Shown here piece after piece: positions 9,088-58,979 of a stretch of 64,000 nt of DNA. Origin of the DNA: Streptomyces sp. DG2A-72. GTDB taxonomy: Bacteria > Actinomycetota > Actinomycetes > Streptomycetales > Streptomycetaceae. Where the stretch lies: assembly GCF_030499575.1 (NCBI RefSeq), contig NZ_JASTLC010000001.1, positions 620,001 through 684,000 of the forward strand, written 5' to 3'. Numbering within the stretch: position 1 is the first letter of the stretch; the number at the start of each line of letters is the position of its first letter. Under the pieces are notes generated by a model. It was not told the DNA's origin. It did not search any database and saw nothing but the letters and a program-made list of their open reading frames with translations. The translations under genes were made by a program, and so were the position numbers.

Positions 9088-9096
9088 CGGGGACGG

Positions 9097-11281: not shown

Positions 11282-11285
11282 GTCG

Positions 11286-11783: not shown

Positions 11784-12104
11784 GCGGCCAATGGTACGTG
11801 GCCGAGGGGCCGCATATCGATACAGCCCCGCGCCCCTTACGTGGGTCGACGTTCACGTTGGCTTCAGAGCTACTGCCAGTCCGGTGGTGTCCGTGCCTGT
11901 CTTTCGGCAGTCCGCCGACGGCAGGCGCCGCCGGCGGAGGCGAGCAGGGCAGGTCGAGTGGTTCAGCGCCGTCCGCAGGCAGACCGGCGAGTTCGGCCAA
12001 CGCCTCGTCGACGGCGGCGAGTTCGCTGTCGCGTTCGAAGAGGGTCCTGCTGCCCGTGAGCGGGCACGTACGCCTCGCGCAGCCCGTACAACCCTGTCCG
12101 ACCG
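11784..12104 (-). other. spacer with possible LAL-type regulator N-terminal relic
   Basis: No complete gene. On the minus strand, about 12060 down to 11920 reads LFERDSELAAVDEALAELAG, which resembles the first residues of large LuxR (LAL) regulators (ERDxELAxLDxAL) just before their Walker A loop. It then loses family resemblance. It may be the stub of a deleted regulator gene or coincidence; the rest of the stretch shows nothing. Confidence 0.3.
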
Positions 12105-12734: not shown

Positions 12735-12750
12735 TAATTCGGCCGGAGCC

Positions 12751-13644
12751 TCACTCCTCGCCCGGCGTCGGTGGCACCACCGCGATCGGGCTCGCCGCGT
12801 GCAGCAGGACGGCCTGGGTGACGGAGCCCATCGTGCGGGCGGGGGCGAGCAGACGGCGTCGGTGGCGGCCGACGACGACCAGCTCGGCGTCCTTGGACGA
12901 GGCGACGAGGTGGCCGGCCGCGTCGCCCGGCGCCACATACGGCTCGGCGTGGACGTCGGGGTGCCGTTTGCGGTGCGGGGCGAGGAAGCCCTCGGCGAGG
13001 ACGCGGGTCTCGTTCTCGACGGCGTCCTGGTCGATCACGGGCGGGACGAGTTCGCCGGGCGTCGCCCAGGTCTGCACGGGCCACGGATAGGCGGCGACCA
13101 CCTGGAGGCGGGCGCCACGCAGGGCGGCCTCGGTGAAGGCGAAGTCGAGCGTCGCCTCGTCGGGGCTGTCGGCGTGCAGGCCGACGACGACACGCGGGCC
13201 CGGTCCGGCCAAAGCGCCGTCATGGACCTCGCGGCCGGGCCGGGGAACCACGACGACCGGGCATTCGGCGTCGCGGGCGGCGGCCATGCCGTTGGAGCCG
13301 AGCAGCAGACTGGCGAAGCCGCCGCGGCCCCGGGAGCCGAGCACCAACAGCTGGGCAGCGGAGCCCAGTTCGGGCAACACCGCACTCGGGGCGCCCTCCA
13401 GCGCCACGTACTCGGCAGTGGTCCGGTCGGCGACATACGCACGGATCTGGTCGAGCACGGGATCGACGTCCGGATCCGGCGGCCCGGCCGCCAGGACGTC
13501 GGGCTGGGTCCACACGGCGTACTGCCGCACATGGACCACCCGCAACGGTGCCTCGCGGCGCCGGGCGGCGTCCAGGGCCCAGTCCAGGGCGCGCAGACTG
13601 TCGTCCGAGCCGTCGACCGCGGCGATGACCGGCAGGGTGCTCAT
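12751..13644 (-). CDS. tandem universal stress protein
   Basis: Cytoplasmic protein of 297 residues with two UspA domains. Domain 1 (about 1-145) starts PVIAAVDGSDDSLRALDWAL and carries the ATP-binding glycine loop LVLGSRGRGGFASLLLGSN. Domain 2 (about 155-295) starts RVVVGLHADSPDEATLDFAF and has the matching GRHRRRLLAPARTMGSVTQ loop, less canonical than the first. Tandem Usp proteins are typical of actinobacteria and respond to starvation, redox or hypoxia. ATG 13644 sits behind GGAGGTGAGGG. The longer in-frame extension up to 13827 was rejected because it has no ribosome site or family similarity. Probably leads a two-gene unit with the CGNR regulator. Confidence 0.9.
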   Translation of the reverse strand: MSTLPVIAAVDGSDDSLRALDWALDAARRREAPLRVVHVRQYAVWTQPDVLAAGPPDPDVDPVLDQIRAYVADRTTAEYVALEGAPSAVLPELGSAAQLLVLGSRGRGGFASLLLGSNGMAAARDAECPVVVVPRPGREVHDGALAGPGPRVVVGLHADSPDEATLDFAFTEAALRGARLQVVAAYPWPVQTWATPGELVPPVIDQDAVENETRVLAEGFLAPHRKRHPDVHAEPYVAPGDAAGHLVASSKDAELVVVGRHRRRLLAPARTMGSVTQAVLLHAASPIAVVPPTPGEE

Positions 13645-13780
13645 GGTTCCCTCACCTCCGGAGTGCGACCTGCACGTCCTGGGACCAGCCTCGCTCAGGC
13701 ATCGGCCCCGGAGGGTGCTCAGGGTCGCGTGTCCGGAAAAACGGGCGGAACACCCAGGGCTCGGTCCCGCCCGCCCCGGC

Positions 13781-14023
13781 TCAGGTGAGGTCGAACTCGC
13801 CCTCCCGCGCACCCGACACGAACGCACCCCACTCCGCCGGCGTGAAGATCAAGGAAGGGCTCTCCGGGCGACCGCTGTTGCGCATGGCGATGAAGCCCTC
13901 GACAAAGGCGATCTGTACGTCCCCCAGCCCGCGGCTGCTGGAGTGCCACTCGGCGTTGCTGAGGTCCAGCTCCGGCTTGTCCCAGCCCGTGAGCGGGTGG
14001 TCCTGGATGGTGCTCTCGGCCAC
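13781..14023 (-). CDS. DUF397 domain protein
   Basis: Small 80-residue DUF397 protein, with the diagnostic core LSNAEWHSSSRGLGDVQIAFVEGFIAMRNS and IFTPAEWGAFVSGAREGEFD. Start GTG 14023 follows GGGAGGA. DUF397 proteins normally lie next to, and work with, an XRE regulator carrying a DUF5753 sensor domain, as BldB-like and whiJ-type sets do in development. No such partner is adjacent here, so this is an orphan copy that would have to pair with a regulator elsewhere. The identity is sure; the role is inferred. Confidence 0.85.
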   Translation of the reverse strand: MAESTIQDHPLTGWDKPELDLSNAEWHSSSRGLGDVQIAFVEGFIAMRNSGRPESPSLIFTPAEWGAFVSGAREGEFDLT

Positions 14024-14106
14024 GTCCGTGCTCCTCCCGATTCGTCGTCCGCGGGCCAGCCTAGCGATCGGTTCCGAGTGCCAACAGGCCACGTGAGGGG
14101 GACCTT

Positions 14107-15273
14107 TCAGGAGTCGGGCGGGCGCGACCCCACGAGCCACATGGAGAAGAACTGGGATCCGCCGCCGTAGGCGTGCCCGAGCACCCTGCGAGCCCCCTCC
14201 ACCTGGTGCTCACCGGCCTGTCCGCGCACCTGGAGGGCCGCCTCCGCGAAGCGGATCATGCCGGAGGCGCCGATGGGATTGGTCGACAGGACGCCGCCCG
14301 ACATATTGACCGGAAGATCCCCGTCCAGTTCGGTCACCCCGGACTCGGTGAGCTTCCAGCCCTCGCCCTCGGCGGCGAAGCCGAGGTTCTCCAGCCACAT
14401 GGGCTCGTACCAGGAGAACGGCACGTACATCTCGACGGCGTCGATGTCCCGGCGCGGGTCGGCGATGCCGGCCTGCCGGTAGACATCGGCCGCGCAGTCC
14501 TTGCCGGCCTGCGGTGACACCGCGTCCTTGCCCGCGAAAAGCGTCGGTTCGCTGCGCATGGCGCCGCCGTGCATCCAGGCGGGCGGCCGGGGCGCGCGGG
14601 CCGCCCCCGCGCGGTCGGTGAGGATCATGGCGCAGGCGCCGTCCGAGGACGGACAGGTCTCCGAGTAGCGGATCGGGTCCCACAGCATGGGCGAGGCCTG
14701 GACCTTCTCCAGGGTGATGTCGTGCTCGTGCAGATGCGCGTACGGGTTCTTCAGCGCGTTGCGCCGGTCCTTGTACGCCACGAGCGAGCCGACGGTGTCG
14801 GGCGCGCCGCTGCGCCGCATGTACGCGCGCACGTGCGGCGCGAAGAACCCGCCCGCGCCGGCCAGCAGCGGCTGCTGGAAGGGGATGGGCAGCGACAGGC
14901 CCCACATCGCGTTCGACTCGGACTGCTTCTCGAAGGCCAGGGTCAGGACGGTGCCGTGCACCCGGGCGGCGACGAGGTTGGCCGCGACCAGCGCCGTGGA
15001 CCCGCCGACCGACCCCGCGGTGTGCACGCGCAGCATGGGCTTGCCCACGGCGCCGAGCGCGTCGGCGAGGTACAGCTCCGGCATCATGACGCCCTCGAAG
15101 AAGTCGGGCGCCTTGCCGATCACGACGGCGTCGACGTCGGCCCACCTCAGCTCTGCGTCGTCGAGCGCCCGCTGCGCCGCCTCCCGCACGAGGCCCGCGA
15201 TCGACACGTCCCGGCGTGCCGCCACGTGCTTGGTCTGGCCGATGCCTACGACGGCCACGGGCTCCTTGCTCAT
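14107..15273 (-). CDS. thiolase-fold lipid-transfer-type protein (Ltp-like), distal gene
   Basis: 388-residue member of the SCP2-thiolase/lipid-transfer protein group. The N-terminus VAVVGIGQTKHVA and the segment LYLADALGAVGKPMLRVHTA lead into GSVGGSTALVAANLVAARVHG. There classical thiolases have their Cys nucleophile, but none is present here. The C-terminal domain shows NMSGGVLSTNPIGASGMIRFAEA and GHAYGGGSQFFSMWLV. Steroid side-chain aldolases such as Ltp2 share this loss and need a DUF35 partner, which is encoded in this operon. A retro-aldol or thiolytic step in acyl-CoA breakdown is inferred. ATG 15273 overlaps the previous stop as ATGA, indicating translational coupling. Confidence 0.82.
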   Translation of the reverse strand: MSKEPVAVVGIGQTKHVAARRDVSIAGLVREAAQRALDDAELRWADVDAVVIGKAPDFFEGVMMPELYLADALGAVGKPMLRVHTAGSVGGSTALVAANLVAARVHGTVLTLAFEKQSESNAMWGLSLPIPFQQPLLAGAGGFFAPHVRAYMRRSGAPDTVGSLVAYKDRRNALKNPYAHLHEHDITLEKVQASPMLWDPIRYSETCPSSDGACAMILTDRAGAARAPRPPAWMHGGAMRSEPTLFAGKDAVSPQAGKDCAADVYRQAGIADPRRDIDAVEMYVPFSWYEPMWLENLGFAAEGEGWKLTESGVTELDGDLPVNMSGGVLSTNPIGASGMIRFAEAALQVRGQAGEHQVEGARRVLGHAYGGGSQFFSMWLVGSRPPDS

Positions 15274-16319
15274 CGGGGATCCCCTTCGAGTACGGCGACC
15301 AGGTTCTGTTGCAGACAGGGGCCGGACGTGGCGTGGGCGAGGGCCCGGTCGGACTCCCCGCGGTGGATGCGGGCCGCGGCCTCGCCGATCCGGATCAACC
15401 CGGCGGCCATGATCGGGTTGGCGGCCAGGGCGCCGCCGGACGGGTTCACGCGGACGCTGTCGTCGAGGCGGAGCGCCTTGCGCAGGACGACCTCCTGTGA
15501 GGTGAAGGGTGCGTGCAGCTCGGCGGTGTCGACGGGGCGTTCGAAGGCGCCCGCCTTCTCGGCGGCCAGGCGGGTGGACGGGGAGTCGGTCAGGTCGCGG
15601 ACGCCGAGTCCGTGTGCCTCGATGCGGTGGTCGGTGCCGCGGATCCAGGCGGGCCTCTCGCACAGCTCCCGGGCCCGGTCTCCGGCCGCGAGGATCACGG
15701 CGGCGGCGCCGTCGCCGATGGGCGGGCAGTCGCCGGTGCGCAGGGGCCGTACGAGATAGTCCCCGTGCGGTATCGAACCCCTCAGCTGCGCATGGGAGTT
15801 GTCGGCGGCGTCCCTTCGGCTGCGGGCGGCGACCCCGGCCAGCGCGGGCTCGTCGGTGTGGCCCGCGTCGATGAGCGCCTGCGCCTGGAGCGCGGCCAGG
15901 GCCACGGAGTCGGGCCACAGGGGCGCGACGTAGTACGGGTCGAGTTGCCGGGTCAGGACGTCGCGGACGGAGCCGGGCGAGGACTTGCCGTACGCGTAGA
16001 CGAGCGCGGTGTCCGCGTCCCCGGTGAGGAGTTTCGTCCACGCCTCGTACAGCGCCCAGGCACCGTCCATTTCGACGTGCGACTCGGAGATCGGAGGCCA
16101 GGCTCCGACGCCGTCGAGGGCGAGGGTGAAGGAGAAGGCACGGCCGGCGAGGTAGTCGCTGGATCCGGAGCAGGTGAAGCCGATGTCGGCGGTCTTCAGA
16201 CCGGTCCGGTCGAGCACCTGGTGCAGGACCGGCATGAGCATCTCCACCTCGGAGTGCTCGTCGCTGGTGCGCCGGTGGTCGGTCTGGGCGAAGGCGACCA
16301 GTGCTATGTCACGCATCAC
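15270..16319 (-). CDS. thiolase-fold lipid-transfer-type protein, proximal gene
   Basis: 349-residue paralogue of the following gene. The N-terminus DIALVAFAQTDHRRTSDEHS is typical of this group. The region where thiolases carry the reactive Cys reads SESHVEMDGAWALYEA, again without a Cys. The C-terminal half has VNPSGGALAANPIMAAGLIRIGEA and ATSGPCLQQNLVAVL, where a Cys does occur in the second catalytic loop. Two such proteins side by side suggest a heteromeric enzyme. It is coupled on both sides: GTG 16319 overlaps the stop of the DUF35 gene, and its own stop overlaps the next ATG. Substrate unknown, presumably a branched, steroid-like or long acyl-CoA. Confidence 0.82.
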   Translation of the reverse strand: MMRDIALVAFAQTDHRRTSDEHSEVEMLMPVLHQVLDRTGLKTADIGFTCSGSSDYLAGRAFSFTLALDGVGAWPPISESHVEMDGAWALYEAWTKLLTGDADTALVYAYGKSSPGSVRDVLTRQLDPYYVAPLWPDSVALAALQAQALIDAGHTDEPALAGVAARSRRDAADNSHAQLRGSIPHGDYLVRPLRTGDCPPIGDGAAAVILAAGDRARELCERPAWIRGTDHRIEAHGLGVRDLTDSPSTRLAAEKAGAFERPVDTAELHAPFTSQEVVLRKALRLDDSVRVNPSGGALAANPIMAAGLIRIGEAAARIHRGESDRALAHATSGPCLQQNLVAVLEGDPR

Positions 16320-38626: not shown

Positions 38627-39914
38627 GCTGTTTGTCAAGCCACCAGAGTGATCGGTGGCGCGGGCTCGTAACGCCGCCCGTCGCGCAGAAGAGCCCACAG
38701 AACGTTGACGCGGCGGCGGGCAAGAGCGAGGACCGCCTGCGTGTGACGCTTGCCCTCGGCACGCTTGCGTTCGTAAAAGCGCCTGGAGTCCTGGCAGTAC
38801 CGGATGCTGAACAACGCCGAGGTGTAGAAGACACGTTGGAGGCGGCGGTTGTATCGCTGAGGACGCTTCAGGCTGCCGCTGATCCTGCCAGAGTCTCGGG
38901 GCACCGGGGCGACACCGCCGAAGCTGGCAAGTCGGTCCGGTGTGCCGAAGACGGCCATGTCGCCGCCGGTCGCGGCTAGGAACTCGGCGCCGAGGATGAC
39001 GCTCAGGCCGGGCATGCTGGTGATCACTTCGAAGGCGTGGTGTTCGCGAAACCGGGCCTCGATGCGCTTGTCGAGCTCGGCCACCTGCTCGTTGAGGGCC
39101 ATCACCTCCTTCGCGAGCGTGTGCATCATCTGGGCGGCCAGCTTCTCCCCGGGCAGGCTGGTGTGTTGGCGCTCTGCGGCGTGGACCGCCGCCTCGGCGA
39201 GCCGGTCGGCACGGGTGACCCCGCGGTTACGCAGCCAGGTCTCCAGCCGTCTGGCGCCAATCCGGCGCAAGGCGGCCGGGGTCTGGTAGCCCGTCAGCAA
39301 GACGAGCGGGCCAGTGTTGTTGAGGTCCAGAGCTCGTTCCAAGGCCGGGAAGATGCTGCTGATCTGGGCGCGGAGGCGGTTGATGGCTCGTGTGCGGTCG
39401 GCGACCAGGTCCATGCGCCGGCCGGTGAGGATCCTGAGGTCGGTGACGGTCTCGTCGCTGGTCCGTAAGGGGTGCAGGTCACGGCGGACGCGGACCTGGT
39501 CGGCGATGACTGCGGCATCCTTGGCGTCGGTCTTGCCTTCGCCGCGGTAGCTCTCGGAGGCGCGGTGGATCGCCCGGCCAGAGATGTAACGCACCGGCTG
39601 ATCGTGGTTGAGGAGGATCGCGATGGTCAGGGCAGCGCCGCCGTCGGCCAGGTCGATGCCCCAGGTCACCTCTTCACCCAAGGTCAGGACGTCGGCGAGG
39701 AGTTTGAGGAGTTCGGGTTCGTCGTTGGCGACGCGTCTCGACAGCAGTCGACGACCGCTCTCGTCGATCGCGACGCAATGGTGATGGGTCTTGCCTGCGT
39801 CGATGCCGGCCCAGATCGCAGCCATGTGGTGCCTCCGTGCGGTGTTCTGCTGATGCCTCTCACAGACGACCTCGCTGTCGATTCCCTACTCAGCGATCAT
39901 TCGCAATTCCTAAT
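38618..39914 (-). mobile_element. IS110-family element nested in a transposase gene
   Basis: The nonamer ATTCCTAAT is present at both borders (38618-38626 and 39906-39914), with the IS110 transposase between. Removing the insert and one copy rejoins the outer transposase reading frame (CQLGIRDDFYSC). This fixes the borders well. IS110 elements usually have no long inverted repeats, and none are seen. Confidence 0.85.
38635..39825 (-). CDS. IS110-family DEDD transposase
   Basis: Intact 396-residue transposase. The N-terminal RuvC-like DEDD domain begins IWAGIDAGKTHHHCVAID (first Asp) and contains GKTDAKDAAVIADQVR with the later acidic pair. The C-terminal Transposase_20 domain has ITSMPGLSVILGAEFLAATG, FGTPDRLASFGGVAPVPRDSG and the catalytic-Ser region SGSLKRPQRYNRRLQRVFY. 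No frameshift or stop was found, so the enzyme could be active and responsible for the nested insertion. Relatives such as IS117 are known from S. coelicolor. In this family the noncoding end of the element encodes a bridge RNA that pairs with target and donor; the 80-base stretch 39826-39905 is the candidate location here. Confidence 0.92.
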   Translation of the reverse strand: MAAIWAGIDAGKTHHHCVAIDESGRRLLSRRVANDEPELLKLLADVLTLGEEVTWGIDLADGGAALTIAILLNHDQPVRYISGRAIHRASESYRGEGKTDAKDAAVIADQVRVRRDLHPLRTSDETVTDLRILTGRRMDLVADRTRAINRLRAQISSIFPALERALDLNNTGPLVLLTGYQTPAALRRIGARRLETWLRNRGVTRADRLAEAAVHAAERQHTSLPGEKLAAQMMHTLAKEVMALNEQVAELDKRIEARFREHHAFEVITSMPGLSVILGAEFLAATGGDMAVFGTPDRLASFGGVAPVPRDSGRISGSLKRPQRYNRRLQRVFYTSALFSIRYCQDSRRFYERKRAEGKRHTQAVLALARRRVNVLWALLRDGRRYEPAPPITLVA

Positions 39915-45597: not shown

Positions 45598-47124
45598 ATG
45601 CTGCCCAGAGGCAACCCGGCGGTGCCCCATGACCGTGAAGAAATGAACCTCTACGCACTCTTAGATAAAAGCCTGAAACTGCACCACGATCGCATAGCCG
45701 TAACCGACGATGACGGATCTCACCGCTATGCCCGACTGGGGCAGCGAGTAAACGAGATAGCGAGTGCCTTATTTGAGGCCGGGTGTCAGTCGCGCACCCG
45801 TGTATGTCTGGCCGTCGGTCATCGATTAGACCTGGTGGCTTCGGTGCTCGCGGTGCTGCGGCTCGGCGCGACATATGTGCCGATAGACACCAGGAATCCC
45901 GTCGACCGGATCAGGTACATTGTCGACGACAGCGAAGCCACGATGGTTATCTGCTCGGCCGAGTACGTGGAGACAGTCGGTCAGCTGGGCCTCGTCGAGC
46001 TGCGGTTGGACGGGCTGAGCCGCCCCGGCGAGACCGTGCCGACGGTGGTCGTCCCCTCGTCTGAGCTGGCCTACATCCTCTACACCTCAGGGTCGACCGG
46101 AAGACCCAAGGGCGTCGGCATCACCCACGGAAACCTCCTGAACTACGTCCGGTGGGCGAGTGACAGGTACTTGCAGTCCCCGGACGACAGAATCGCGCTG
46201 TATACGACCCTGGCGTTCGATTTCACGGTGACCTGCTTATTTCCGCCCCTGATCGCCGGCGCTTCGATTGGTATCTACGATGGTGTCGCCGACCCTATGG
46301 CGATCCAGCGAATCCTGGCGGACGAAGACGTCAACGTCGTCAAGATAACTCCGTCGTACCTCTACCTCTTGTCCCATCTGCTCAACGGTCACCGGCACAT
46401 TAGGCGACTGATTGTCGGCGGCGAGGATCTGACGGCCGAGCTCGCGGCGAAGGTCCACGCTCAGTTGATGGGGAGCGCCGAGATCGTCAACGAGTACGGT
46501 CCCACGGAAGCCACCGTTGGCTGCATTACCCACACCTTCGATCCCGCCGTGGACCGGGACGGCTCAGTGCCGATCGGTGAGCCGATACCGGGAATGCGGG
46601 CATACGTCGTCAACAAGTACGGCGACCCGGTGGCCGATGGCGAGGAAGGTGAGATCCTCCTCTCCGGGAAAAGCGTCGCCCCCGGGTATCTACGCCCAGA
46701 ATCTCACGCCTTCACTGATAATCCATTTGACCCGGGAACGGTCGTGTACCGGACCGGAGACATTGCCCGGCGGGGCACCGACGGCAACCTCCTGTTCATC
46801 GGGAGAAAAGACGACCAGGTTAAGATCCGCGGAAACAGGGTCGAGCTGTCGGAGGTCTCCGCAGCGATCCTGAACCATCCGATGGTGGCCTCGGCGTACG
46901 TCACGGCCGTCCGCGAGCACGGATCCCGCGCGCTGGCCGCTGTGGTCACGGGCGACCCCGGCCTCACCGAGGCCCTACTCCAGAAGCACCTCGCGCAACA
47001 GCTGCCTGGGTACGCAGTGCCCACCAGCCTTAAGGTCATCGACGCACTACCGCTGACCTTCAATCAGAAAGTAGACCGTGACGCCGTACTGACCATCTTT
47101 CGTAACGGGGAGGCCACACGATGA
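45598..47124 (+). CDS. stand-alone NRPS adenylation domain (Asn-like code)
   Basis: 508-residue free adenylation enzyme that activates an amino acid as aminoacyl-AMP and loads a carrier in trans. Core motifs: LYTSGSTGRPKGVGITH (A3), NEYGPTEATVG (A5), YRTGDIARRG (A7), GRKDDQVKIRGNRVEL (A8), and an unusual NQKVDR in place of NGKVDR (A10). Specificity residues read by alignment to GrsA: D208 F209 T212 K249 I272 G274 E299 V307 G308 K491, i.e. DFTKIGEVGK, close to the known Asn code DLTKLGEVGK. It has no carrier domain. Start ATG 45598 follows GAGG; ATG 45643 is also possible. Four TTA codons (45661, 45769, 45826, 46237) imply bldA dependence. Overlaps the next gene as ATGA. Confidence 0.9.
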   Translation: MLPRGNPAVPHDREEMNLYALLDKSLKLHHDRIAVTDDDGSHRYARLGQRVNEIASALFEAGCQSRTRVCLAVGHRLDLVASVLAVLRLGATYVPIDTRNPVDRIRYIVDDSEATMVICSAEYVETVGQLGLVELRLDGLSRPGETVPTVVVPSSELAYILYTSGSTGRPKGVGITHGNLLNYVRWASDRYLQSPDDRIALYTTLAFDFTVTCLFPPLIAGASIGIYDGVADPMAIQRILADEDVNVVKITPSYLYLLSHLLNGHRHIRRLIVGGEDLTAELAAKVHAQLMGSAEIVNEYGPTEATVGCITHTFDPAVDRDGSVPIGEPIPGMRAYVVNKYGDPVADGEEGEILLSGKSVAPGYLRPESHAFTDNPFDPGTVVYRTGDIARRGTDGNLLFIGRKDDQVKIRGNRVELSEVSAAILNHPMVASAYVTAVREHGSRALAAVVTGDPGLTEALLQKHLAQQLPGYAVPTSLKVIDALPLTFNQKVDRDAVLTIFRNGEATR

Positions 47125-48206
47125 CCACATGGACCACGGACGCATACCAGCATGCCATCGACACCATCACGCCGATCTGGGCGGAGCTGCTGAACACAGA
47201 AACCGGCCTCGTCACCGAGTCCACGCACTTCTTCGAGTCCGGCGGACACTCGCTCACCGCGATGCTGCTGGTCACCAGGGTGTCAGGAGAGCTGGGCAAG
47301 TCGGTTCCCCTCTTCGCGCTGGTGGAGAACCCCACGCTCTCCGCGTTCGTCAGCTATGTGCTGAAGGCTGATGAGGAGGCGGTGGTCGAGGAGGCGAAGG
47401 CACCGGACGGCTCCATGACCCAGACGGAACGGCTGCTGCGCTACAACGAGCCCGAGCGCCAAGAGTCCCGGAACCAGCGGTTCGAACGCTACTACGCCAC
47501 CGCCATGGCCAGTGACGCCCACGCGGAGTTCTGCCGGCAGGTCTACGGCCGGAACCTCGGTCAGCACGGCATGGCGGATTTCACGCAGATCGACCGGATG
47601 CTCGCCCTGCTCGCCCCGAAGGAGGGTGACACCGTCCTGGACCTCGGCTGTGGATACGGACTGATCTCCCAGTACATCGCGGAGCAGACCGGAGCGAACG
47701 TCGTCGGCGTCGATCTGTCGGCCAGCGCTATCGCCTATGCCGATATGTTGGCCGAGTCGGACAGCCGACTGCGCTTTCACACCATGGACGTCCGCGACCT
47801 GCGCTTCCCGCCCCGCACCTTCACGCACATCATCTCCATCGACACCATCTATTACGCCCCGTCGCTGAAGTCGCTGCTACGCAGGTTCCAGGAGATCGGC
47901 ACCGACGCCGTACGGCTTGGGATCGTCCGGACGTTCCCGATGCGAACCTTCACTGCGGAGACATGGAGCCCCGACCTCACAGAGCTGGCGACGCTGCTCA
48001 AAGAGATGTTCGGCGGCTACGAGTCCGTCGACCTGAGCCGGGAAGAGAACGAGCACTGGCGGAAGAAGGTCACCGTGCTCGAATCGCTCCGGGAGAGGTT
48101 CCTCGAGGAGCGCAACGAGGAGCTGTTCCAGTTCCGGTACAGCGAGGCGGAGTACGAGGCCGGAATCGAGCAGCTCCGGTACATGTTCGTGTCGAGGAAC
48201 TCGTGA
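47121..48206 (+). CDS. carrier protein-methyltransferase didomain
   Basis: 361-residue fusion. Residues about 10-85 form a peptidyl carrier domain with FFESGGHSLTAM, Ser44 being the phosphopantetheine site. From about 120 to 361 lies a class I SAM methyltransferase: motif I VLDLGCGYGLISQYIAEQTG, acidic VVGVDLSASAI, then FTHIISIDTIYYAP. The tail, EEAKAPDGSMTQTERLLRYN onward, links the two. The methyltransferase would act on the amino acid held by the attached carrier or on the product; N-, O- or C-methylation cannot be told apart here. Its carrier is presumably loaded by the upstream adenylation enzyme. Coupled on both sides: ATGA at the start, GTGA at the end. Confidence 0.88.
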   Translation: MTTWTTDAYQHAIDTITPIWAELLNTETGLVTESTHFFESGGHSLTAMLLVTRVSGELGKSVPLFALVENPTLSAFVSYVLKADEEAVVEEAKAPDGSMTQTERLLRYNEPERQESRNQRFERYYATAMASDAHAEFCRQVYGRNLGQHGMADFTQIDRMLALLAPKEGDTVLDLGCGYGLISQYIAEQTGANVVGVDLSASAIAYADMLAESDSRLRFHTMDVRDLRFPPRTFTHIISIDTIYYAPSLKSLLRRFQEIGTDAVRLGIVRTFPMRTFTAETWSPDLTELATLLKEMFGGYESVDLSREENEHWRKKVTVLESLRERFLEERNEELFQFRYSEAEYEAGIEQLRYMFVSRNS

Positions 48207-49549
48207 CCGGCGGACGGGCCCAGGTGCTGCAACCCGCGCGGGTCTCGGACCATCCGCCCGCGCGGGGCATCTCCTACAACCAGGAGCAGATTTGCCTGCT
48301 CAGCGCCTTCTACCCGCGCAATCAGGCGTACAACGCGCAGGCGACGATCCACATCAGGGGCGAGCTGGACTTGGTCTGCCTGGAGCGGGCCGTGACGCAC
48401 GTCATCGACCGGCACGAGATGCTACGCACCACGATCAGCCTGGGCAGCTCCGGCTACCTGGCGACCGTCCACGAGCCCTTTCCCTTCGACATCCCGTTCC
48501 ACGACCTGTCCGGGCTGCCGGAACCGGAGCGGCAGCAGGCGCTCGAGGAGCTGCGCCTCGCGCGACAGCACCAGGTCTTCGACCCCGCGACGCTCCCGCT
48601 GCTGAGCATCGACGCGGTGCGGCTCGCGCCCGGTGCGTGGACGCTGATCCAGGTCGAGCACCACGCCGTCCACGACGGCTGGTCGTTCGGCCGGTTCTGG
48701 GAGGAGGTGCAGGCCGCCTATAACGCCCTGGCGGCCGGTCTGCGGCCCGACCTGCCGCCGGTGCCAGCGCAGTACCAGCAGTTCGTCAGCTGGCAGCGCG
48801 GCCGGATGGAGGGGGAGTACGGCCGGGAGGCGGTCGACTTCTGGGCCGACTATCTGGACGGCGCCGGGGAGGTGACGGTCGGCGGTCCGCCGACCCGGGT
48901 GGACAGCCTGGACGGCCACAACCTCGAGGCCACGCTGCCCGCGGAATCCTTCGGTCGGATCCGCGACACCGCCCGGCGCCTGGCTGTCTCGCCGTTTGTA
49001 CTGATGCTCGGCGTCTACGCGCAGATGCTGGCCGAGAAGAGCGGCGAGACCGACTTCTGCGTCGGCACCGCGGTCAACGCCAGGACCGAGACCGACCTGG
49101 AGCCGATGCTCGGCATGGTGGTGAACACCATGCCGGTGCGGGTCAGGGTCCCCGAGGGAGGGCCACCGGCTGACGTCTTCCGCGGCGTCCAGAGGTCGCT
49201 GTTCCGGGCGCTGCGCTACAACGACGTGCCCCTGTCGCTGATGGTCCGCCAGCTGAAAACCGCGCAGCGGCCGGGCCGTAATCCGGTCTTCCAGCACTGC
49301 TTCAGCTTTCACGACTCGCAGGTGCCACGACTGGAGTTGGGGAACTGCGCGGCCGAGATCCGCGAGGGGCAGAACCACACCGCGAAGTTCGACATGAACG
49401 TCGTGGTGATCCCGCCGAGTCCCACGCGGGACGCCGGGCACGCGCGGATGTTCTGGCAGTTCTCGCGGAGCGTCTTCTCGCGCGCGGAGGCGGTCGCTCT
49501 CGTCCGCGACTATGAGCAGTTGCTGGAGAGGGTTCTTCGTGAGCCATAG
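48203..49549 (+). CDS. stand-alone NRPS condensation domain
   Basis: 448-residue condensation enzyme joining two carrier-bound units. The active-site motif HHAVHDG is at about 153-159 (second His catalytic), with C1-like SYNQEQICLLSAF, RHEMLRTT (C2), YNDVPLSLMVRQL and GRNPVFQHCFSF (later motifs). It resembles LCL or starter-type C domains; no epimerisation features. No carrier or adenylation domain is attached, so it must bring together the carrier-methyltransferase and the carrier-adenylation protein. GTG 48203 overlaps the previous stop; the larger open frame from 47963 is a shadow of that gene. Its end overlaps the exporter start by 11 bases. Confidence 0.9.
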   Translation: MTGGRAQVLQPARVSDHPPARGISYNQEQICLLSAFYPRNQAYNAQATIHIRGELDLVCLERAVTHVIDRHEMLRTTISLGSSGYLATVHEPFPFDIPFHDLSGLPEPERQQALEELRLARQHQVFDPATLPLLSIDAVRLAPGAWTLIQVEHHAVHDGWSFGRFWEEVQAAYNALAAGLRPDLPPVPAQYQQFVSWQRGRMEGEYGREAVDFWADYLDGAGEVTVGGPPTRVDSLDGHNLEATLPAESFGRIRDTARRLAVSPFVLMLGVYAQMLAEKSGETDFCVGTAVNARTETDLEPMLGMVVNTMPVRVRVPEGGPPADVFRGVQRSLFRALRYNDVPLSLMVRQLKTAQRPGRNPVFQHCFSFHDSQVPRLELGNCAAEIREGQNHTAKFDMNVVVIPPSPTRDAGHARMFWQFSRSVFSRAEAVALVRDYEQLLERVLREP

Positions 49550-50924
49550 CACAGCGGACACAACGACGCCGCCGAGCCGGGCGACGAAGTACGTGCCCGC
49601 CGTGGTCATGGGGCTGGGCGGCTTCTTCGCCACCTTCGATCTGACCGCGGTCGCGCTCATCCTCACCGACCTCGGCCGGGAATTCGACGTGGATGTCGCC
49701 GGCTCGGTGTGGATCATGAACGGCTACAGCCTGGCGCTGACCGTCATGCTCCTCATTGCAGGTGTGCTGTCCGACCGTTACGGTCACCGGCTCTCGGTCA
49801 TGGTCGGCTCCGCGCTCCTCCTGGTCGCATCTGTGGTCTGCGCGTTCGCCCCGCACTACGGCGTCCTGATCGGCGGGCGGGTCGTTCAGGGGATCGGCGG
49901 GGCGTTTATCGTCTGCGGCGGCCTGGCGTTGGTCGGCCGGATCTACACGGAGAAGGCCGCGCGGGTACGCGCCTTCGCCCTCATCGGCACGATCCAGGGC
50001 ATGGCGCTGGTGGCAGGTCCCGGGCTCGGCGGCGTCATCGCGAGCGTGCTCGGCTGGCAGTGGATCTTCCTGATCAACATTCCGGTCTGCGCGGTCATCA
50101 TCGCGGGCTGCCTGGTGGCGAGGGAAGCGCCCGGTGTCCGCAAGAACAACCCGCTTGACCTGCCCGGCCTGGCCGCCTTCAGCGTGTTCCTGTTCCTGGC
50201 GACCTGGTTGCTGATGTACGGCCCGGTCATCGGCGGTACAACGGTGAGCAAACCGCTGGTCGTCGCGGTGCTGATCGCAGTCTTCGCCCTGTTCGTGTGG
50301 ACCGAACGAAAGGCCCGGCACCCGGCCGTCGACCTCGGCCTCTTCCGGATGCGGGTGTTCGCGGGCCTGGCGCTGGTGCCGCTGTGTCTCGCGGTCAGCT
50401 ACTGGTCGCTGATGGTCTATCTGCCGATGTTCCTGGAGTCCTCGATGGACCTGGGCACCGAGAAGCTCTCGTACCTCATGCTCTTCTTCACCGTGCCGAT
50501 GTTCGCGGTCCCCTACCTGGTCACGCCGGTGGCCACGAGGGCGAAGCAGAGCACCTTTTACTCCGGCGGCCTGACTGTGGTGGCCGCCGGGTGCCTGATC
50601 ATCGGCGTCGGCGCCCAGAAGACCGCGCTGGCCGTGGTGATCGCGGGAATGACCGTCGCCGGTATCGGCGCGGCCACCGTGCAGAACCAGGTGACTGGCG
50701 CGCTCATCGCGAGTGCGCCGCCGGACCGGGCCGGTTCCGTCGCCGCGATCATGACGATCCTGCGACAGGGCGGTTTCGCCGTCGGCAGTGCCTTGCTGTC
50801 CAACGCCACCAGCGGGTACTCGGGGCTGTTCGGGATCTGCGTGCTGGTGGCCGGGGCCGGCGCGGTGTGCACGTTCCTGCTCATCCGTTCGGACGAATCG
50901 AGACGTGACCGAGGAATGGAGTGA
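49539..50924 (+). CDS. MFS exporter (DHA2-type, 14 TM)
   Basis: 461-residue drug/proton antiporter. The first helix is VVMGLGGFFATFDLTAVALI; motif C-like LVAGPGLGGVIASVLGWQWI and the loop SDRYGHRLSVMVG (motif A) are clear. About 13-14 hydrophobic segments follow, with a cytoplasmic loop at REAPGVRKNNPLD. This group exports hydrophobic drugs and often the product of the surrounding cluster. GTG 49539 (behind GGAGAGGG) was chosen over ATG 49512, which lies deeper in the condensation gene. Sitting inside the NRPS operon, it probably exports the peptide product and gives self-protection. Confidence 0.9.
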   Translation: MSHSTADTTTPPSRATKYVPAVVMGLGGFFATFDLTAVALILTDLGREFDVDVAGSVWIMNGYSLALTVMLLIAGVLSDRYGHRLSVMVGSALLLVASVVCAFAPHYGVLIGGRVVQGIGGAFIVCGGLALVGRIYTEKAARVRAFALIGTIQGMALVAGPGLGGVIASVLGWQWIFLINIPVCAVIIAGCLVAREAPGVRKNNPLDLPGLAAFSVFLFLATWLLMYGPVIGGTTVSKPLVVAVLIAVFALFVWTERKARHPAVDLGLFRMRVFAGLALVPLCLAVSYWSLMVYLPMFLESSMDLGTEKLSYLMLFFTVPMFAVPYLVTPVATRAKQSTFYSGGLTVVAAGCLIIGVGAQKTALAVVIAGMTVAGIGAATVQNQVTGALIASAPPDRAGSVAAIMTILRQGGFAVGSALLSNATSGYSGLFGICVLVAGAGAVCTFLLIRSDESRRDRGME

Positions 50925-50927
50925 CCG

Positions 50928-52685
50928 GTGGAACGGAATCGGGATGACAGCCGAGCCGCCATCGCACAGACGGTGGAGGCGATCTGGCGTGAGGTCCTTA
51001 ACAGGGACGCCGCCGACCCGCAAGACAACTTCTTCGACCTCGGGGGAAATTCGCTGGGCGTGGTGAAGTTCCTCGCCCAGATCGAGGACTCCTTAGGCCT
51101 CGATGTCCTCATGCCGGAGGAGCTCTACCAGACGCCGACCCTGTCGGCGGTCGTGTCGACGATCGAGTCCCGCGTCCGCCGTGCCGACAGCAGCTTCCCA
51201 GGCGGGACGATCGCCGAGGTGTTCGCGGAGCGCGCCGCCGAGGCCCCGGAGGCGATCGCACTGCGTTTCCGTGACCGCGCCGTGACGTACCGGGAGCTCG
51301 ACCGCGCCGCCAACGACCTCGCCTGGCGGCTGCACCGGGAGGGGGTCAAGCCCGGCACGGTCGTCGCCACGGCAATGGCGCGCACGCCCGAGTTCGTCGC
51401 CGCACTGCTGGGCATCCTCAAGGCCGGCGGCGCCTATCTGCCGATCGACCCGGGGTGGCCGGCCGCCCGGCTGGCCACGATGACCGACCTGGCCTCCGTT
51501 CCGGTCGTCGTCACGGACGAGGCGACCGACGCGCCGCTGCCGGACCACGTCACCCGCATGCGCGTCGGCGCCACGGACGCCGCGGGCCGGGACGACGGCC
51601 CGGACGTCGAAGTGGCTGCCGCGGGCGCCGCCATCGTCAACTTCACCTCCGGGTCGACAGGCGAGCCAAAGGGAGTGCTGACCCCGCACCACGGCGTCAC
51701 CAGCCTGCTGTTCCCGGCGGCCTACACGGAGCTCTCAGCCGACACCGTGCTGCTCCAGCACATGTCCCCGAGCTTCGACGCGATGACGATCGAGCTGTGG
51801 GGAGCGCTGCTGCACGGTGGCACCTGCGTCCTGTTCGACGGCATGTTCCCCAGCGTCAGCCGACTCCGTGCGGCCATCTACGACAACGGCGTCAACACGC
51901 TGGTACTGACCACCGCGCTGTTCAACGTCATCGTCGACAGCGCACCGGACCTGCTGGACCCACTGGTCGCGCTGATCCTCGGCGGCGAGGCGCAGTCCCC
52001 GCGGCACATCCGCGCGGCGCATGAGCGGCTGCCGAAGCTGCCGATCATCAACGCCTACGGCCCCACCGAGACGACGGTCATCGCGACCTGCTTCCCGGTT
52101 GCCGAGCTCGCGGCGGACGCCTCCTCGGTGCCGATCGGCCGCCCCATCGCCCACCGTGAGGTGTCGATCCTCGGGCCGGACCTCACCCCGGTGGCGCCGG
52201 GCGAGACCGGCGAGATCTGTGTGTCGGGCCCAGGCCTGTCGATCGGCTACGTCGGCCGCCCCGATCTGACAGACGAACGGTTTATCACGATCCGGACCGA
52301 GGACGGCAGACCCCGGCGGATCTACCGCACGGGGGACCTCGCCCGCGTCAACCCGGCCGGCGAGATGGAGTTCCTGGGACGTGCCGACCGCCAGGTGAAG
52401 CTCAACGGGCAGCGCATCGAGCTCGAGGAGATCGAGCGCGCCCTGGAGGCGCACCCCGGCGTCCTCCAGGCGGTCGCGCTGGTGCACGGCGAAGGAGTGA
52501 CCCGGACCCTGCAGGCAGTGCTGGTCGCGCCGGACGGGGTGCCGGACGACCTGCGGAGGGTCCTGTCCCGTTCACTTCCCGACTACATGATCCCCATGGG
52601 CGTGCGCGCGATCGACACGCTGCCGCTCACCACGAACGGCAAGGTCGACCGGGCCGCCCTGACCGAGCTGCTCGACCAGGTCTGA
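50928..52685 (+). CDS. carrier-adenylation NRPS didomain
   Basis: 585-residue protein with the reversed order PCP-A. The carrier domain (about 10-85) has FFDLGGNSLGVVKF, phosphopantetheine on Ser42. The adenylation domain (about 100-585) shows NFTSGSTGEPKGVLTPHHGV (A3), NAYGPTETTVIAT (A5), YRTGDLARVNPAGEMEFLGR (A7/A8) and NGKVDR (A10). Pocket residues: D284 A285 I288 V326 I350 G352 A376 V384 I385 plus Lys, i.e. DAIVIGAVIK, a hydrophobic pocket with no match I can name. It probably loads its own carrier with a hydrophobic or non-proteinogenic acid. One TTA codon at 51093. GTG start follows GGAG, three bases after the exporter stop. Confidence 0.9.
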   Translation: MERNRDDSRAAIAQTVEAIWREVLNRDAADPQDNFFDLGGNSLGVVKFLAQIEDSLGLDVLMPEELYQTPTLSAVVSTIESRVRRADSSFPGGTIAEVFAERAAEAPEAIALRFRDRAVTYRELDRAANDLAWRLHREGVKPGTVVATAMARTPEFVAALLGILKAGGAYLPIDPGWPAARLATMTDLASVPVVVTDEATDAPLPDHVTRMRVGATDAAGRDDGPDVEVAAAGAAIVNFTSGSTGEPKGVLTPHHGVTSLLFPAAYTELSADTVLLQHMSPSFDAMTIELWGALLHGGTCVLFDGMFPSVSRLRAAIYDNGVNTLVLTTALFNVIVDSAPDLLDPLVALILGGEAQSPRHIRAAHERLPKLPIINAYGPTETTVIATCFPVAELAADASSVPIGRPIAHREVSILGPDLTPVAPGETGEICVSGPGLSIGYVGRPDLTDERFITIRTEDGRPRRIYRTGDLARVNPAGEMEFLGRADRQVKLNGQRIELEEIERALEAHPGVLQAVALVHGEGVTRTLQAVLVAPDGVPDDLRRVLSRSLPDYMIPMGVRAIDTLPLTTNGKVDRAALTELLDQV

Positions 52686-52726
52686 GTACCCGTCCGTTGT
52701 TCCGCCGACTGTGAAGAGAGGTTCAG

Positions 52727-53983
52727 GTGCCAGCGAAGCCCTTGCCGGTGCTGGTCGACTACGCCCGCCGCAACTCACCGTTCTACGCTGATCTCTACCG
52801 TGACCTGCCCGAGGTGATCACCGACCTCACCCAGCTCCCCGTCGTGGATCAGGAGGCCTTCTGGGACGCGAACACCTTCCCGGGCAACCGGCTGCTTACC
52901 AGGCCGTTGACAAACGGAATCGTGTACAAGTCCGGCGGCACCACCGGCGCGCCGAAGTTCTCCCCGTGGGACGAGGAGGAGAACACCGATGCCGTCGTCG
53001 CGTTCGGCACCGGGCTGGTGCGGGCAGGGGTGCGCCCCGGCCACCGAGTAGCCAATCTGTTCTTCGCCGGCGAGTTGTACAGCGGCTTTGCCTTTATGAA
53101 CGACGTGTTGACGCACGCCCCCATCGAGAATCTGCGGCTGCCGATCGCCGGTGCGGCGCCGGTGGAGTTCGTCGCCTCCGTGTTCAAGGAGTTCGGCGTC
53201 AATGTCACCTGCGGTATGGCGTCGACGCTGGTCCGGCTGGCCGACCTGTTGATCGAGCGCGGTGAGGTCGCCGACTCGGTCGAACGGCTGCTCTTCGCCG
53301 GCGAGCCGCTCTTCGACGATGTCCGCTCGGTGCTTGCTCAGGCATTCCCCAAGGCCACCGTGGGGTCGCTCGGATACGCCGCGGTCGACGGCGGCCCGCT
53401 CGGCGCACCCGTCCCCGGCGACGACGTGCGGGTACACGAGTCACTCGCGCCCTACAGCCTCATCGAGCTGCTCGACGAGGCAACCGGCGAGCCGATCACC
53501 CGGGCCGGCATGCCGGGCCGGGTGATCGCGACCAACACGTCCCGGACGCTGATGCCTGTCATCCGCTACCCGGTCGGTGACCGTGCCGAGTGGACCGATG
53601 TGGAGCGGAAGCAGTTCCGCTTGCTGGGCCGCTCCGAGGACGCCGTGAAGGTCGGCCCGGACGTGCTGCGCCCCGGCGAGGTCCGCAACGTCATCGCCCG
53701 GGCCGACCGGGACGGGGTGGTGACCGGAATGCAGCTGGTCGCGCGTCGCTGGGAGGGCAGGGATGGACTGGTGCTGCGGCTGGCTGCGCAGGAGCAGGCC
53801 CCGGACGGTCTGGACCAGGCGGTTATCGACGCCGTGTACGCGGCCAGTCCGCCGTATCCCCGCGCGGTCCGCCGGGGCACCATCCACCCGATCACAGTGG
53901 AGTGGGTGCGCCCCGCCGAGCTGACGACGAACCCCCGCACCGGCAAGCTGATCGAGGTCGTGGACGAGCGGCCCAGCCCCTGA
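52727..53983 (+). CDS. PaaK-like adenylate-forming enzyme
   Basis: 418-residue enzyme of the phenylacetate-CoA ligase (PaaK) branch of the ANL superfamily. Motifs: NSPFYADLYRDLP (typical N-terminus), KSGGTTGAPKFSPWDEEEN (P-loop), GYAAVDGG where PaaK has the conserved aromatic core, and VIRYPVGDRAEW (A7-like) before the C-terminal domain ending TNPRTGKLIEVVD with the catalytic Lys. It should adenylate an aryl or alkyl carboxylic acid and pass it to CoA or to a carrier. In this operon it could supply an acyl cap, or release or cyclise the peptide. GTG 52727 follows AAGAGAGG, 41 bases after the previous gene. Last gene of the cluster. Confidence 0.85.
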   Translation: MPAKPLPVLVDYARRNSPFYADLYRDLPEVITDLTQLPVVDQEAFWDANTFPGNRLLTRPLTNGIVYKSGGTTGAPKFSPWDEEENTDAVVAFGTGLVRAGVRPGHRVANLFFAGELYSGFAFMNDVLTHAPIENLRLPIAGAAPVEFVASVFKEFGVNVTCGMASTLVRLADLLIERGEVADSVERLLFAGEPLFDDVRSVLAQAFPKATVGSLGYAAVDGGPLGAPVPGDDVRVHESLAPYSLIELLDEATGEPITRAGMPGRVIATNTSRTLMPVIRYPVGDRAEWTDVERKQFRLLGRSEDAVKVGPDVLRPGEVRNVIARADRDGVVTGMQLVARRWEGRDGLVLRLAAQEQAPDGLDQAVIDAVYAASPPYPRAVRRGTIHPITVEWVRPAELTTNPRTGKLIEVVDERPSP

Positions 53984-54040: not shown

Positions 54041-54074
54041 CGTGAACAGGGCATATCCCACCGCCCTGTTCACG
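54041..54074 (+). terminator. 12-bp perfect inverted repeat
   Basis: Arms CGTGAACAGGGC (54041-54052) and its complement (54063-54074), ten-base loop, 58 bases after the stop of the PaaK-like gene. Probable operon terminator; the symmetry could also be an operator. Confidence 0.75.
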
Positions 54075-56442: not shown

Positions 56443-57048
56443 ATGAGCCGTTGGGAGGAGTTGACTGGGGGGACGTCCGGACAGGACTACGCTGAACGGT
56501 TCGCGGCCCTGGCCGGTAGCGGGAAGGATGTGCACGGTGAGGCGCGGTTCTGCGCAGCACTCGTGCCTGCCGGAGCGCGGGTGCTGGACGCCGGGTGCGG
56601 TACCGGACGGGTCATGATCCGGCTTGCGGAGCTCGGCTACGACTGCGTCGGAGTGGATCTTGATGCGTCGATGCTGGCAGTGGCGCAGAAACAGGCGCCG
56701 GAACTGCCCTGGTTCCAAGTCGATTTGACCGGGTTCGACCCGGACTTGCTCGGCATTTCACCGTACTTCGATCTCGTGATCGCCGCAGGCAACGTTTTCC
56801 CGTTGCTCGCCGCTGGCACCGAGGCCACGGCGGTCGAGCGCCTGGCCGCGGCCCTGCGTCCGGGCGGTTTGATCGTCGCCGGTTTCGGCCTGGACGAAGC
56901 CCACCTGCCCGTGCCACCCAGCATCACCCTGTCGGAATACGACGACTACTGCGCCGCAGCCGGCCTCACCTTCGTCGACCGCTTCGCCACCTGGGACGCC
57001 GACTCTTACGATGGCGGCGGCTATGCCGTCAGCGTCCACCGCCGGTGA
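56443..57048 (+). CDS. class I SAM-dependent methyltransferase
   Basis: 201-residue soluble methyltransferase with a Rossmann-like fold. Motif I is VLDAGCGTGRVMIRLAELGY (about 47-66), followed by the acidic end of strand 2, VGVDLDASML, motif II FDLVIAAGNVFPLL and motif III ALRPGGLIVAGFGLD. No additional domain reveals the substrate; similar proteins methylate small molecules. It is complete and the only clearly intact gene in the debris field, perhaps cargo. It could act on the NRPS product, but 2.5 kb and two broken genes separate them, so that is only a possibility. ATG 56443; composition like its neighbours. Confidence 0.88.
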   Translation: MSRWEELTGGTSGQDYAERFAALAGSGKDVHGEARFCAALVPAGARVLDAGCGTGRVMIRLAELGYDCVGVDLDASMLAVAQKQAPELPWFQVDLTGFDPDLLGISPYFDLVIAAGNVFPLLAAGTEATAVERLAAALRPGGLIVAGFGLDEAHLPVPPSITLSEYDDYCAAAGLTFVDRFATWDADSYDGGGYAVSVHRR

Positions 57049-57148
57049 GGTTCTGCGGGGCATCTTGGTGGCCTTCGCGGTGCGGGGGTTCTTCGGCAAG
57101 CTCGGCCGACACGTCCACACGGTCGTCACTGGGCTCCTGATGTTGCCG

Positions 57149-57334
57149 CTGTAAGTTGCCGTCCGGCAGCCGCTCCGCCATCGCCTGGATCGACTTGCGG
57201 CGCCCGTCCAGCATCAGCCCCCGCAGATAGCAGTCGCCCTTCGCCCGCTGATCCTTGCGCGGCACCGATGCGAACACGTCGGCCACGAAGAACGCCAACG
57301 CCGCCCGCATGCGGTTCACTTCATGTGCGTCCAC
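57149..57334 (-). pseudogene. IS701-type transposase N-terminal fragment
   Basis: About 60 codons: VADVFASVPRKDQRAKGDCY, LRGLMLDGRRKSIQAMAERL, PDGNLQ. This is the conserved start of IS701-family transposases, which continue for some 350 more residues; here the sequence changes at about 57149. Fused in frame with unrelated DNA upstream, so it is a relic. Confidence 0.78.
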
Positions 57335-57400
57335 ACCCCCAACATGCTCTTGATCAGCACTTATCGGAAGACCTAACGGAGTTCTAATAAGATCCGGACC

Positions 57401-57514
57401 GGGACCTCCTGGCGCGACCGGCCGGAACGCTACGGGCCATGGCAGACGGTCTACATCCGCTTCCGCCGCTACGCCCTGGACGGCGTGTTCACCCGGGCCC
57501 TCCAGCAGATCAGG
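57401..57514 (+). pseudogene. IS5-type transposase fragment (DUF4096 part)
   Basis: On the plus strand: GTSWRDRPERYGPWQTVYIR, FRRYALDGVFTRALQQI. This is the N-terminal DUF4096 segment of an IS5-family transposase, different from the copy at 35.8 kb. The rest is missing on both sides. It lies between the IS701 fragment and the ABC-3C fragment. Confidence 0.75.
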
Positions 57515-57577
57515 GGGATCCACCGGCCGGACGAACCGGACGATCACGCCCTCGGCCGATCCCGAGGCGGACTCCGT

Positions 57578-58042
57578 TTGAAGACGGACCCTAATGCCGC
57601 CGGTGCTGGGCAGCCAGCGCCCGAGTTGAACGGCCGCTTTCTGGATGGCGGTGTTCTGCTCAGTGCCGCCTTTGACCGTCTTGTCCAGGGCTCGCGGCGC
57701 CACGGTCAGCCCGCTGTCCTGAAGCCTCAGGACATCGCTTTGGAGGGCGAAGAGCAGGCCGGGCCGCACGACGGCAGCGAGAGCGGCAGCGTTGAGTCCC
57801 ATCGCGACGCGCACGGCCTCGTTCGCGTCCAGCCACCCCATCAGCCCGGTGCGCAGGGTGGCCGGCAGCGCTGCCCGGATGGACGGCTGGAGGGCCATGC
57901 CCGCGGCGGGCACCGCTACGGGCAGCGGGCACACGGTGGCGTACTGCTGTTCGTAGCCCTGCACCGCGCGGGTACACACGGGTGCGGTGAATGCCGAGTT
58001 GAACAAGCCGCGTTCCTCCCTGCTGAGTTCACGCCCGGCCAT
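57578..58042 (-). pseudogene. ABC-three-component (ABC-3C) system middle component, C-truncated
   Basis: About 155 codons from ATG 58042: AGRELSREERGLFNSAFTAP, RAVQGYEQQYATVCPLPVAV, LQPSIRAALPATLRTGLMGW, KTVKGGTEQNTAIQKAAVQL, GRWLPSTGGIRVRL. This matches the middle-component proteins of ABC-3C systems, prokaryotic conflict (probably antiphage) systems with an ATPase component and a variable effector. The last residues are replaced by junk sequence. Upstream, the tail of the preceding gene (NQALSLEFAARLAALLESTG then AADGRA and stop, 58106-58029) overlaps the start by 14 bases, the usual operon structure. The ATPase and effector genes are gone. Confidence 0.68.
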
Positions 58043-58235: not shown

Positions 58236-58979
58236 GTCCGGCATCTTCAGCGGCAGCAGTTCGCGAACCGCTCGACCGCGGGCGAGCTGGCCGCGACCGA
58301 CGCGGCACGGGCGTGCGCGGCACTTCCAGGAGGGGCAGCAACCGGCAGTGGAGGCACCGCAGTTGACGTGAGCCGAGCCTGCGGTGTGCTGAAGTCCTGG
58401 GACCGCACGATGAACAGCGACAGCCGGGGTGCGCTGCTCTTCGACCGGTTCTGGCACAAGCTGCGCGCCGCCGTGCCGTCCACGCAGCTCTGGAAGGTCC
58501 CGTTCTCACCGGCAGACCCGGTCGGCACCCCGAACACGCTCAACACCGACGCACCGGGCTTCACCACGGCCCTCGCCGACGCCGTGGCGGAGCTGCGCGC
58601 GGCGGGCATCCCGCTGGACGCGCGGCTCGGGGACCACCAGTACGTCGTGCGAAAGGGGCAGCGCCTGGCCGTGGGCGGTGGCACCGAGTCCCTGGGCGTG
58701 TTGAACAAGATCGAGCCCGTCTGGGACACGGCGAAGGGCGGCTACCGGGACGTCTCCTTCGGCTCCAGCCACATCCAGGCCGTGGGCTGGGACGGCAGCC
58801 GCTGTCCGGTGGCCCGCACGCTCCTGACGTACTCCCAGTCCTCGAACCCGAACTCGCCCCACTTCAGCGACCAGACCCGGTTGTTCTCGGGCGAGAAGTG
58901 GGTGACCGCGCGGTTCTGCGAGAAGGACATCCTGTCCTCGCCCGCCCTGCGGGTGATGCGGGTGACCGAACACCGGTGA
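58236..58979 (+). pseudogene. penicillin acylase family, C-terminal fragment
   Basis: 3-prime part of a secreted Ntn-hydrolase gene: VRHLQRQQFANRSTAGEL, VSRACGVLKSWDRTMNSDSR, GALLFDRFWHKLRAAVP, LGDHQYVVRKGQRLAVGGGT, GYRDVSFGSSHIQAVGWDGS, then SPHFSDQTRLFSGEKWVTAR near the end. This is the beta-subunit end of penicillin, AHL or cyclic lipopeptide acylases. The signal peptide, alpha subunit and catalytic Ser are missing. A frame-shifted bit before it (GYERVFGPVRTAA, around 58135-58175) may be another piece. The natural stop is kept. Marks the right edge of the debris field. Confidence 0.75.

Follow-up and report, generated by a model that had tools for sequence, protein, structure and literature searches.

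Does the six-gene locus of Streptomyces sp. DG2A-72 build and release a small peptide by itself, or do its split nonribosomal peptide synthetase (NRPS) proteins serve another purpose? The window analysed here, a stretch of 64 kb out of a host genome of 10.58 Mb, carries on the + strand at 45598-53983 genes for an adenylation protein (A1), a carrier-methyltransferase didomain (PCP-MT), a stand-alone condensation protein (C), an MFS exporter, a carrier-adenylation didomain (PCP-A2) and a PaaK-like ligase (Table 1). Our main reading, to which we give a probability of about 0.6, is that they form a self-contained, horizontally spread split (type II-like) two-residue NRPS, which would make methyl-Asn-X and release it without a thioesterase (TE). 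The sequence-only reading of this DNA had likewise proposed a small divided NRPS that forms a single peptide bond, contains one methyltransferase and lacks a TE, and the domain content supports it; the operon on one strand with intact core motifs was also borne out by Pfam and the translations.

Table 1. Genes and other features of the window and of the two proteobacterial loci sharing its core
Locus	Feature	Position	Strand	Basis or remark
Window	A1, stand-alone adenylation protein, 508 aa	45598..47124	+	Pfam; pocket by eye
Window	PCP-MT didomain, 361 aa: carrier and class I SAM methyltransferase	47121..48206	+	Pfam
Window	C, free-standing condensation protein of 448 aa with active-site motif HHAVHDG	48203..49549	+	Pfam
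Window	MFS efflux transporter, 470 aa, nearest DHA2/EmrB type (below its cut-off)	49512..50924	+	Pfam, NCBIfam
Window	PCP-A2 didomain, 585 aa: carrier then adenylation domain	50928..52685	+	Pfam
Window	PaaK-like adenylate-forming ligase, 418 aa	52727..53983	+	NCBIfam and PDB search
Window	Inverted repeat with exact arms of 11 bp, folding into 15 pairs	54042..54073	+	Fold -27.1 kcal/mol
L009, Rhodobacter MAG	A1	8364-9977
L009, Rhodobacter MAG	PCP-MT	9974-11062
L009, Rhodobacter MAG	C	about 11062-12420
L009, Rhodobacter MAG	MFS	12398-13876
L009, Rhodobacter MAG	PCP	13824-14126
L009, Rhodobacter MAG	A2	14113-15654
L010, Variovorax	A1			In-frame stop
L010, Variovorax	PCP-MT	9962-11050
L010, Variovorax	C	11047-12396
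L010, Variovorax	MFS	12433-13815
L010, Variovorax	PCP	13715-14065
L010, Variovorax	A2	14052-15596

The junctions of A1 with PCP-MT and of PCP-MT with C are overlaps of 4 nt, and C and MFS overlap by 38 nt, or by 11 nt if the MFS gene starts at GTG 49539 and encodes a shorter protein. Gaps of 3 nt and 41 nt precede PCP-A2 and the PaaK-like gene, so that the genes, previously described as mostly overlapping, do overlap at the first three junctions and not at the last two. The start of C was set at GTG 48203 and not at ATG 47963, giving 448 aa, the length of record P0204. The inverted repeat just 3' of the PaaK-like gene, which has no T-run, is possibly the operon end; it is absent from the calls of the terminator scan, which gave none on the + strand and one on the - strand against 3.1 expected. 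The promoter scan found no sigma-70-like promoter. A truncated gene lies near the operon.

The A, PCP and C functions reside on separate proteins, two of which are PCP didomains, and their catalytic motifs are intact, as in dissociated (type II-like) NRPSs. The term fully dissected, which had been applied to this system, is right about the splitting and slightly too strong about its extent, because each PCP shares a protein with another domain, PCP1 with MT and PCP2 with A2. In the translations, both A domains have A3 TSGSTG, A5 YGPTE, A7 YRTGD and the A10 Lys, the two PCPs have GGHS and GGNS, and the MT has DLGCGYG. By Pfam, no TE, R (reductase) or Cy domain was detected within the operon or among 14 flanking ORFs (four upstream and six downstream, plus four more), several of which are matchless and perhaps not genes; the absence of thioesterase, reductase and cyclase noted earlier thus stands.

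A1 matched AMP-binding (E 1.3e-75, residues 24-365) and AMP-binding_C (residues 419-491), and PCP-A2 matched PP-binding (1.4e-13), AMP-binding (3.5e-76) and AMP-binding_C; both A domains exceed the cut-off of TIGR01733, which assigns them to the amino-acid type. C matched Condensation (7e-65) and the transporter MFS_1 (4.2e-44). PCP-MT comprises a carrier at residues 15-80 (PP-binding, 5.2e-13) and a methyltransferase at residues about 110-361 (Methyltransf_25, 7.4e-17), with a pLDDT of 88.4 for its AF2 model; the fold comparison, in which a missing fold carries no weight, barely covered the PCP half. Aligned to the plant phosphoethanolamine N-methyltransferase, the MT has Leu and Tyr at the places of Tyr and His, which we take to be the catalytic dyad known as Y19 and H132 in the Plasmodium enzyme. 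The SAM motif residues are invariant in an alignment of the window protein with 38 of its 45 close relatives, and all 26 C proteins compared, the window's and 25 relatives, keep HHxxxDG. The domains of the window look intact and conserved, not dead. Inactive domains, named by the sequence-only reading as a reason to abandon its proposal, are not suggested here: the motifs and all six frames are intact in the window.

The operon is not a one-off. When the PCP-MT protein was compared with genome contigs, seven stretches matched and two of them encoded a relative, one in a Rhodobacter MAG (L009) and one in a Variovorax genome (L010). Both carry the order A1 / PCP-MT / C / MFS / PCP / A2, on the same strand throughout, with PCP2 and A2 as separate genes. 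Their neighbour genes differ (translations read by eye), both operons are without PaaK, and no TE gene was found in any of the three operons. The search for this gene order in other genomes, which had been recommended, was thus rewarded, with PCP-MT being rare in the sampled genomes. PCP-MT has 45 close relatives (50-93% identity, E <1e-106), followed by 38 much weaker matches; those named include Actinokineospora cianjurensis, Nocardia sp. NRRL S-836, Rhizobium rhizogenes, Leisingera daeponensis, Cohaesibacter sp., Roseibium aestuarii and Burkholderia multivorans. Stand-alone C relatives number 25 (47-82% identity), and 15 of them pair with a PCP-MT relative by equal length of the longest contig. 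Distances of PCP-MT and C correlated with r 0.943 (15 pairs and the window), above all 9999 permutations (maximum 0.607); this shows linkage and not its cause, because common descent of the hosts contributes.

How far does the PaaK-like ligase belong to this core? The protein had no Pfam match at E 0.001, and its four PaaK-type matches in NCBIfam (best 1.9e-14) were all under the cut-off; TIGR02155, the PaaK phenylacetate-CoA ligase, scored 30.3 bits against a cut-off of 646.3, and the match to the BagE/FevW synthetase was also weak. The PDB search matched PaaK at 6.5e-7. With scores so far under the cut-offs, the last gene belongs to a different family and is, by its sequence, a remote PaaK relative only. 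The nearest relatives (P0002-P0012) are 11 proteins at 68-88% identity, and close relatives occur in actinobacteria. Among 392 genomes of the window's genus, 258 had some PaaK-like match at E 0.001 and 46 besides its own had a relative at 50-56% identity, all short of the 78-88% seen in the closest clade. Neighbourhoods in other genomes were considered as a clue to function (five regions, L026-L030, with ORFs listed, and Pfam on L028 and L030) and set aside: L028 and L030, whose relatives are 51 and 56% identical to the ligase, represent a different system with MFS, LuxE, LuxC and another AMP-binding domain, and in L028 additionally GNAT. Because of these neighbours, the ligase family is not tied to the split NRPS and serves other pathways.

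It is conceivable, and in our view unlikely, that the ligase is central, activating an aryl or acyl acid as a cap for the dipeptide, or joining an amine or alcohol to it, so that the actinobacterial product is a conjugate and PaaK the release or tailoring enzyme. Its place as the last gene of the operon fits this, as do GGTTGxPK, RYPxGDxAEW and RTGK, invariant in 30 aligned sequences (the window and 29 of the 120 listed relatives), the three of the 11 nearest relatives that pair with a PCP-MT relative by equal length of the longest contig, and the weak BagE/FevW match. On the other hand, what we take to be the usual A5 glutamate of such ligases is not evident, with an invariant Asp nearby in the alignment, and the L028 and L030 relatives sit in MFS/LuxE/LuxC clusters. 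A core mechanism in which the PaaK-like enzyme releases the product, as once suggested, was rejected because both proteobacterial operons are without the gene. The best reading of these comparisons is that PaaK is a lineage-specific add-on, and in actinobacteria it may add a step such as activation of the free acid or of an acyl cap.

What would the core make? The A1 pocket, read by eye, is DFTKIGEVGK and is identical across the three loci. This code had no match in the open-access papers searched; it differs by one residue from DLTKIGEVGK, which stands in the Asp/Asn section of PMC12283262 in the part of that paper considered here, and the pocket appears asparagine-like. The A2 pocket, also read by eye, is DAIVIGAVIK in the window and differs among the three loci; in the window it may prefer a hydrophobic or Tyr-like residue. 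In the main reading, A1 would adenylate L-Asn and load PCP1, as its pocket suggests, and the MT fused to PCP1 would, as fold and fusion suggest, methylate Asn-S-PCP1, the alpha-N being the position that we favour. A2 would load a second, species-dependent residue onto PCP2, Tyr-like or hydrophobic here, and the free C protein would join the two, probably to methyl-Asn-X-S-PCP2. The product would most likely leave when the alpha-amine of Asn attacks the thioester, giving a diketopiperazine, or else by hydrolysis, and the MFS protein may export it.

Split systems need not be collinear. The reverse order, which we regard as quite unlikely, takes the A2 residue as donor and Asn as acceptor, giving X-Asn-S-PCP1, whose side-chain amide would attack the thioester to form an aminosuccinimide (imide). 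Such release would explain both the absent TE in the three operons and the Asn-like pocket that is constant at the three loci while A2 varies, but the arrangement of the genes (A1, PCP1-MT, C, PCP2, A2) speaks for Asn as the first residue.

Dissociated NRPSs as a kind are already known. The accessible parts of PMC4858918 describe highly dissociated modules for the uridyl peptide antibiotics pacidamycin, napsamycin and sansanmycin, and the likeness lies in this dissociation; those NRPSs build a uridyl pseudo-tetrapeptide, whereas the operon here has one C, two A and two PCPs, and no nucleoside genes were noticed in the scanned flanks. Fatty acid amide pathways use free-standing A, carrier and C proteins (OaaA, OaaACP, OaaC), in which a single A protein takes a fatty acid and the acceptor is a free amine, according to the portion consulted of a preprint (PMC13142362); our operon has instead two amino-acid-type A domains, two carriers and an MT. 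In cystobactamid synthesis CysH performs stand-alone Asn loading and supplies an Asn-derived linker, separate enzymes modifying the carrier-bound Asn (PMC7966384, in part). In the excerpts considered, CysH and the albicidin protein AlbIV carry an inserted A-domain region (38 kDa and 342 aa, respectively) and feed a large assembly line (PMC7966384; PMC12283262), whereas A1, with 508 aa, AMP-binding at 24-365 and AMP-binding_C at 419-491, is without such an insert. From what was seen of these partial descriptions, none of the compared systems is a two-A, two-PCP, one-C, one-MT operon. The gene order had been reported as unfamiliar, and indeed no cluster with the same order was found among the papers listed for the open-access literature (in two cases the first 15 of 93 and 15 of 17), MIBiG and most subscription journals being outside this scope.

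The CysH/CysB precedent, within the part of PMC7966384 considered, raises a possibility that the operon is a supply line, making methyl-Asn or the dipeptide for a larger NRPS elsewhere. Such a role in the host is possible because large NRPSs lie at about 0.81 and 1.14 Mb, and yet the operon brings its own C and exporter as well as a second A and a second PCP, and we consider the supply role improbable. Moreover, the predicted autonomy is supported because the same operon stands alone in the two proteobacterial genomes. The Rhodobacter assembly, a MAG and perhaps incomplete, has two Condensation matches, one of them inside the operon, and with only one other match the operon there probably does not feed a large assembly line. 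The Variovorax genome does not help on autonomy because, besides the one in the operon, it has six further Condensation matches (seven in all), several in long NRPS frames.

At a threshold of E 1e-40 or better, PCP-MT occurred only in the seed genome in each sample: 1 of 394 genomes of the window's class, 1 of 295 of the L009 family, 1 of 385 of the L009 class (query P0147) and 1 of 399 of the L010 order (query P0165). No relative was found on plasmids (412 weakly matching records, none with 80% query coverage) or in phages (11 records), and none was confirmed in viral contigs. The GC content of the 32 bins of the window is lowest at 46001-48000 (0.634), and an IS110 transposase lies at 38635-39825. 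A1 has four TTA codons and a GC3 of 0.76, compared with a median of 0.902 and a minimum of 0.831 in 20 window ORFs, a comparison that is biased because these ORFs were picked partly for high GC3. Rarity, the spread over actinobacteria and proteobacteria, low GC and the transposase fit horizontal transfer, and the core cassette is probably transferred between phyla as a whole. It is highly improbable that the operon is an acquired island now decaying or silent and without a product: the low GC and TTA codons of A1, the transposase and truncated gene nearby and the stop codon in Variovorax A1 point that way, but the six frames and motifs are intact in the window and many residues are invariant among the relatives.

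The layout of the operon, its intact motifs and the presence of one core in three unrelated genomes are established, and the gene set in Streptomyces, Rhodobacter and Variovorax suggests a rare, mobile natural-product pathway. A broader view, which we hold tentatively as somewhat short of an even chance, is that a phylum-crossing mobile core cassette makes a family of small methyl-Asn dipeptides, or the diketopiperazines or imides derived from them; the first residue would be fixed, the second interchangeable through a swappable A2, release would need no TE, and add-ons such as PaaK would be optional. If this is true, the products would be a new class of minimal NRPS metabolite. The operon points to a metabolite family spread over actinobacteria and several proteobacteria. 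As a complete NRPS for making a peptide bond it would be very small and could be reconstituted from four soluble proteins, and its relatives would form a natural series, with one A enzyme constant and the other changing from host to host. Such a series would provide a test bed for free C/PCP recognition, TE-less release and A-domain swapping.

In the Variovorax locus with the same core gene order (L010), an in-frame TAG stop lies within the reading frame of the stand-alone adenylation protein A1; this copy of the operon may therefore be inactive, or the sequence record may be erroneous.

In many rows of the search of the window's genus, the first PaaK-like match is accompanied by another, of lower strength, at a distance of about 6 kb. 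Genes for MFS, LuxE and LuxC proteins, assigned by Pfam, lie near the PaaK-like ligase at both of the loci of this genus that were scanned (L028 and L030), with an additional GNAT gene at L028.

Two other ORFs of the window were matched by Pfam. One looks, by its domain matches, as if a mobile element had run into an ABC-3C component, and the other is perhaps a truncated acylase gene.

Features and their coordinates
Feature	Sequence	Coordinates	Strand	Content
A1	window	45598-47124	+	four TTA codons
PCP-A2 (carrier and adenylation didomain)	window	50928-52685	+	one TTA codon
ORF	window	57029-58042	-	ABC-three-component middle component 3 (ABC-3C system); DDE transposase domain
ORF	window	58368-58979		penicillin amidase, C-terminal part only (profile 479-673 of 675)
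A1 frame, Variovorax	L010	8250-8900		TAG stop
PaaK-like neighbourhood	L028	8457-15922		
PaaK-like neighbourhood	L030	8383-15866		

TTA codons tie gene expression to bldA in Streptomyces, and those of A1 and PCP-A2 suggest that expression there would be bldA-dependent.
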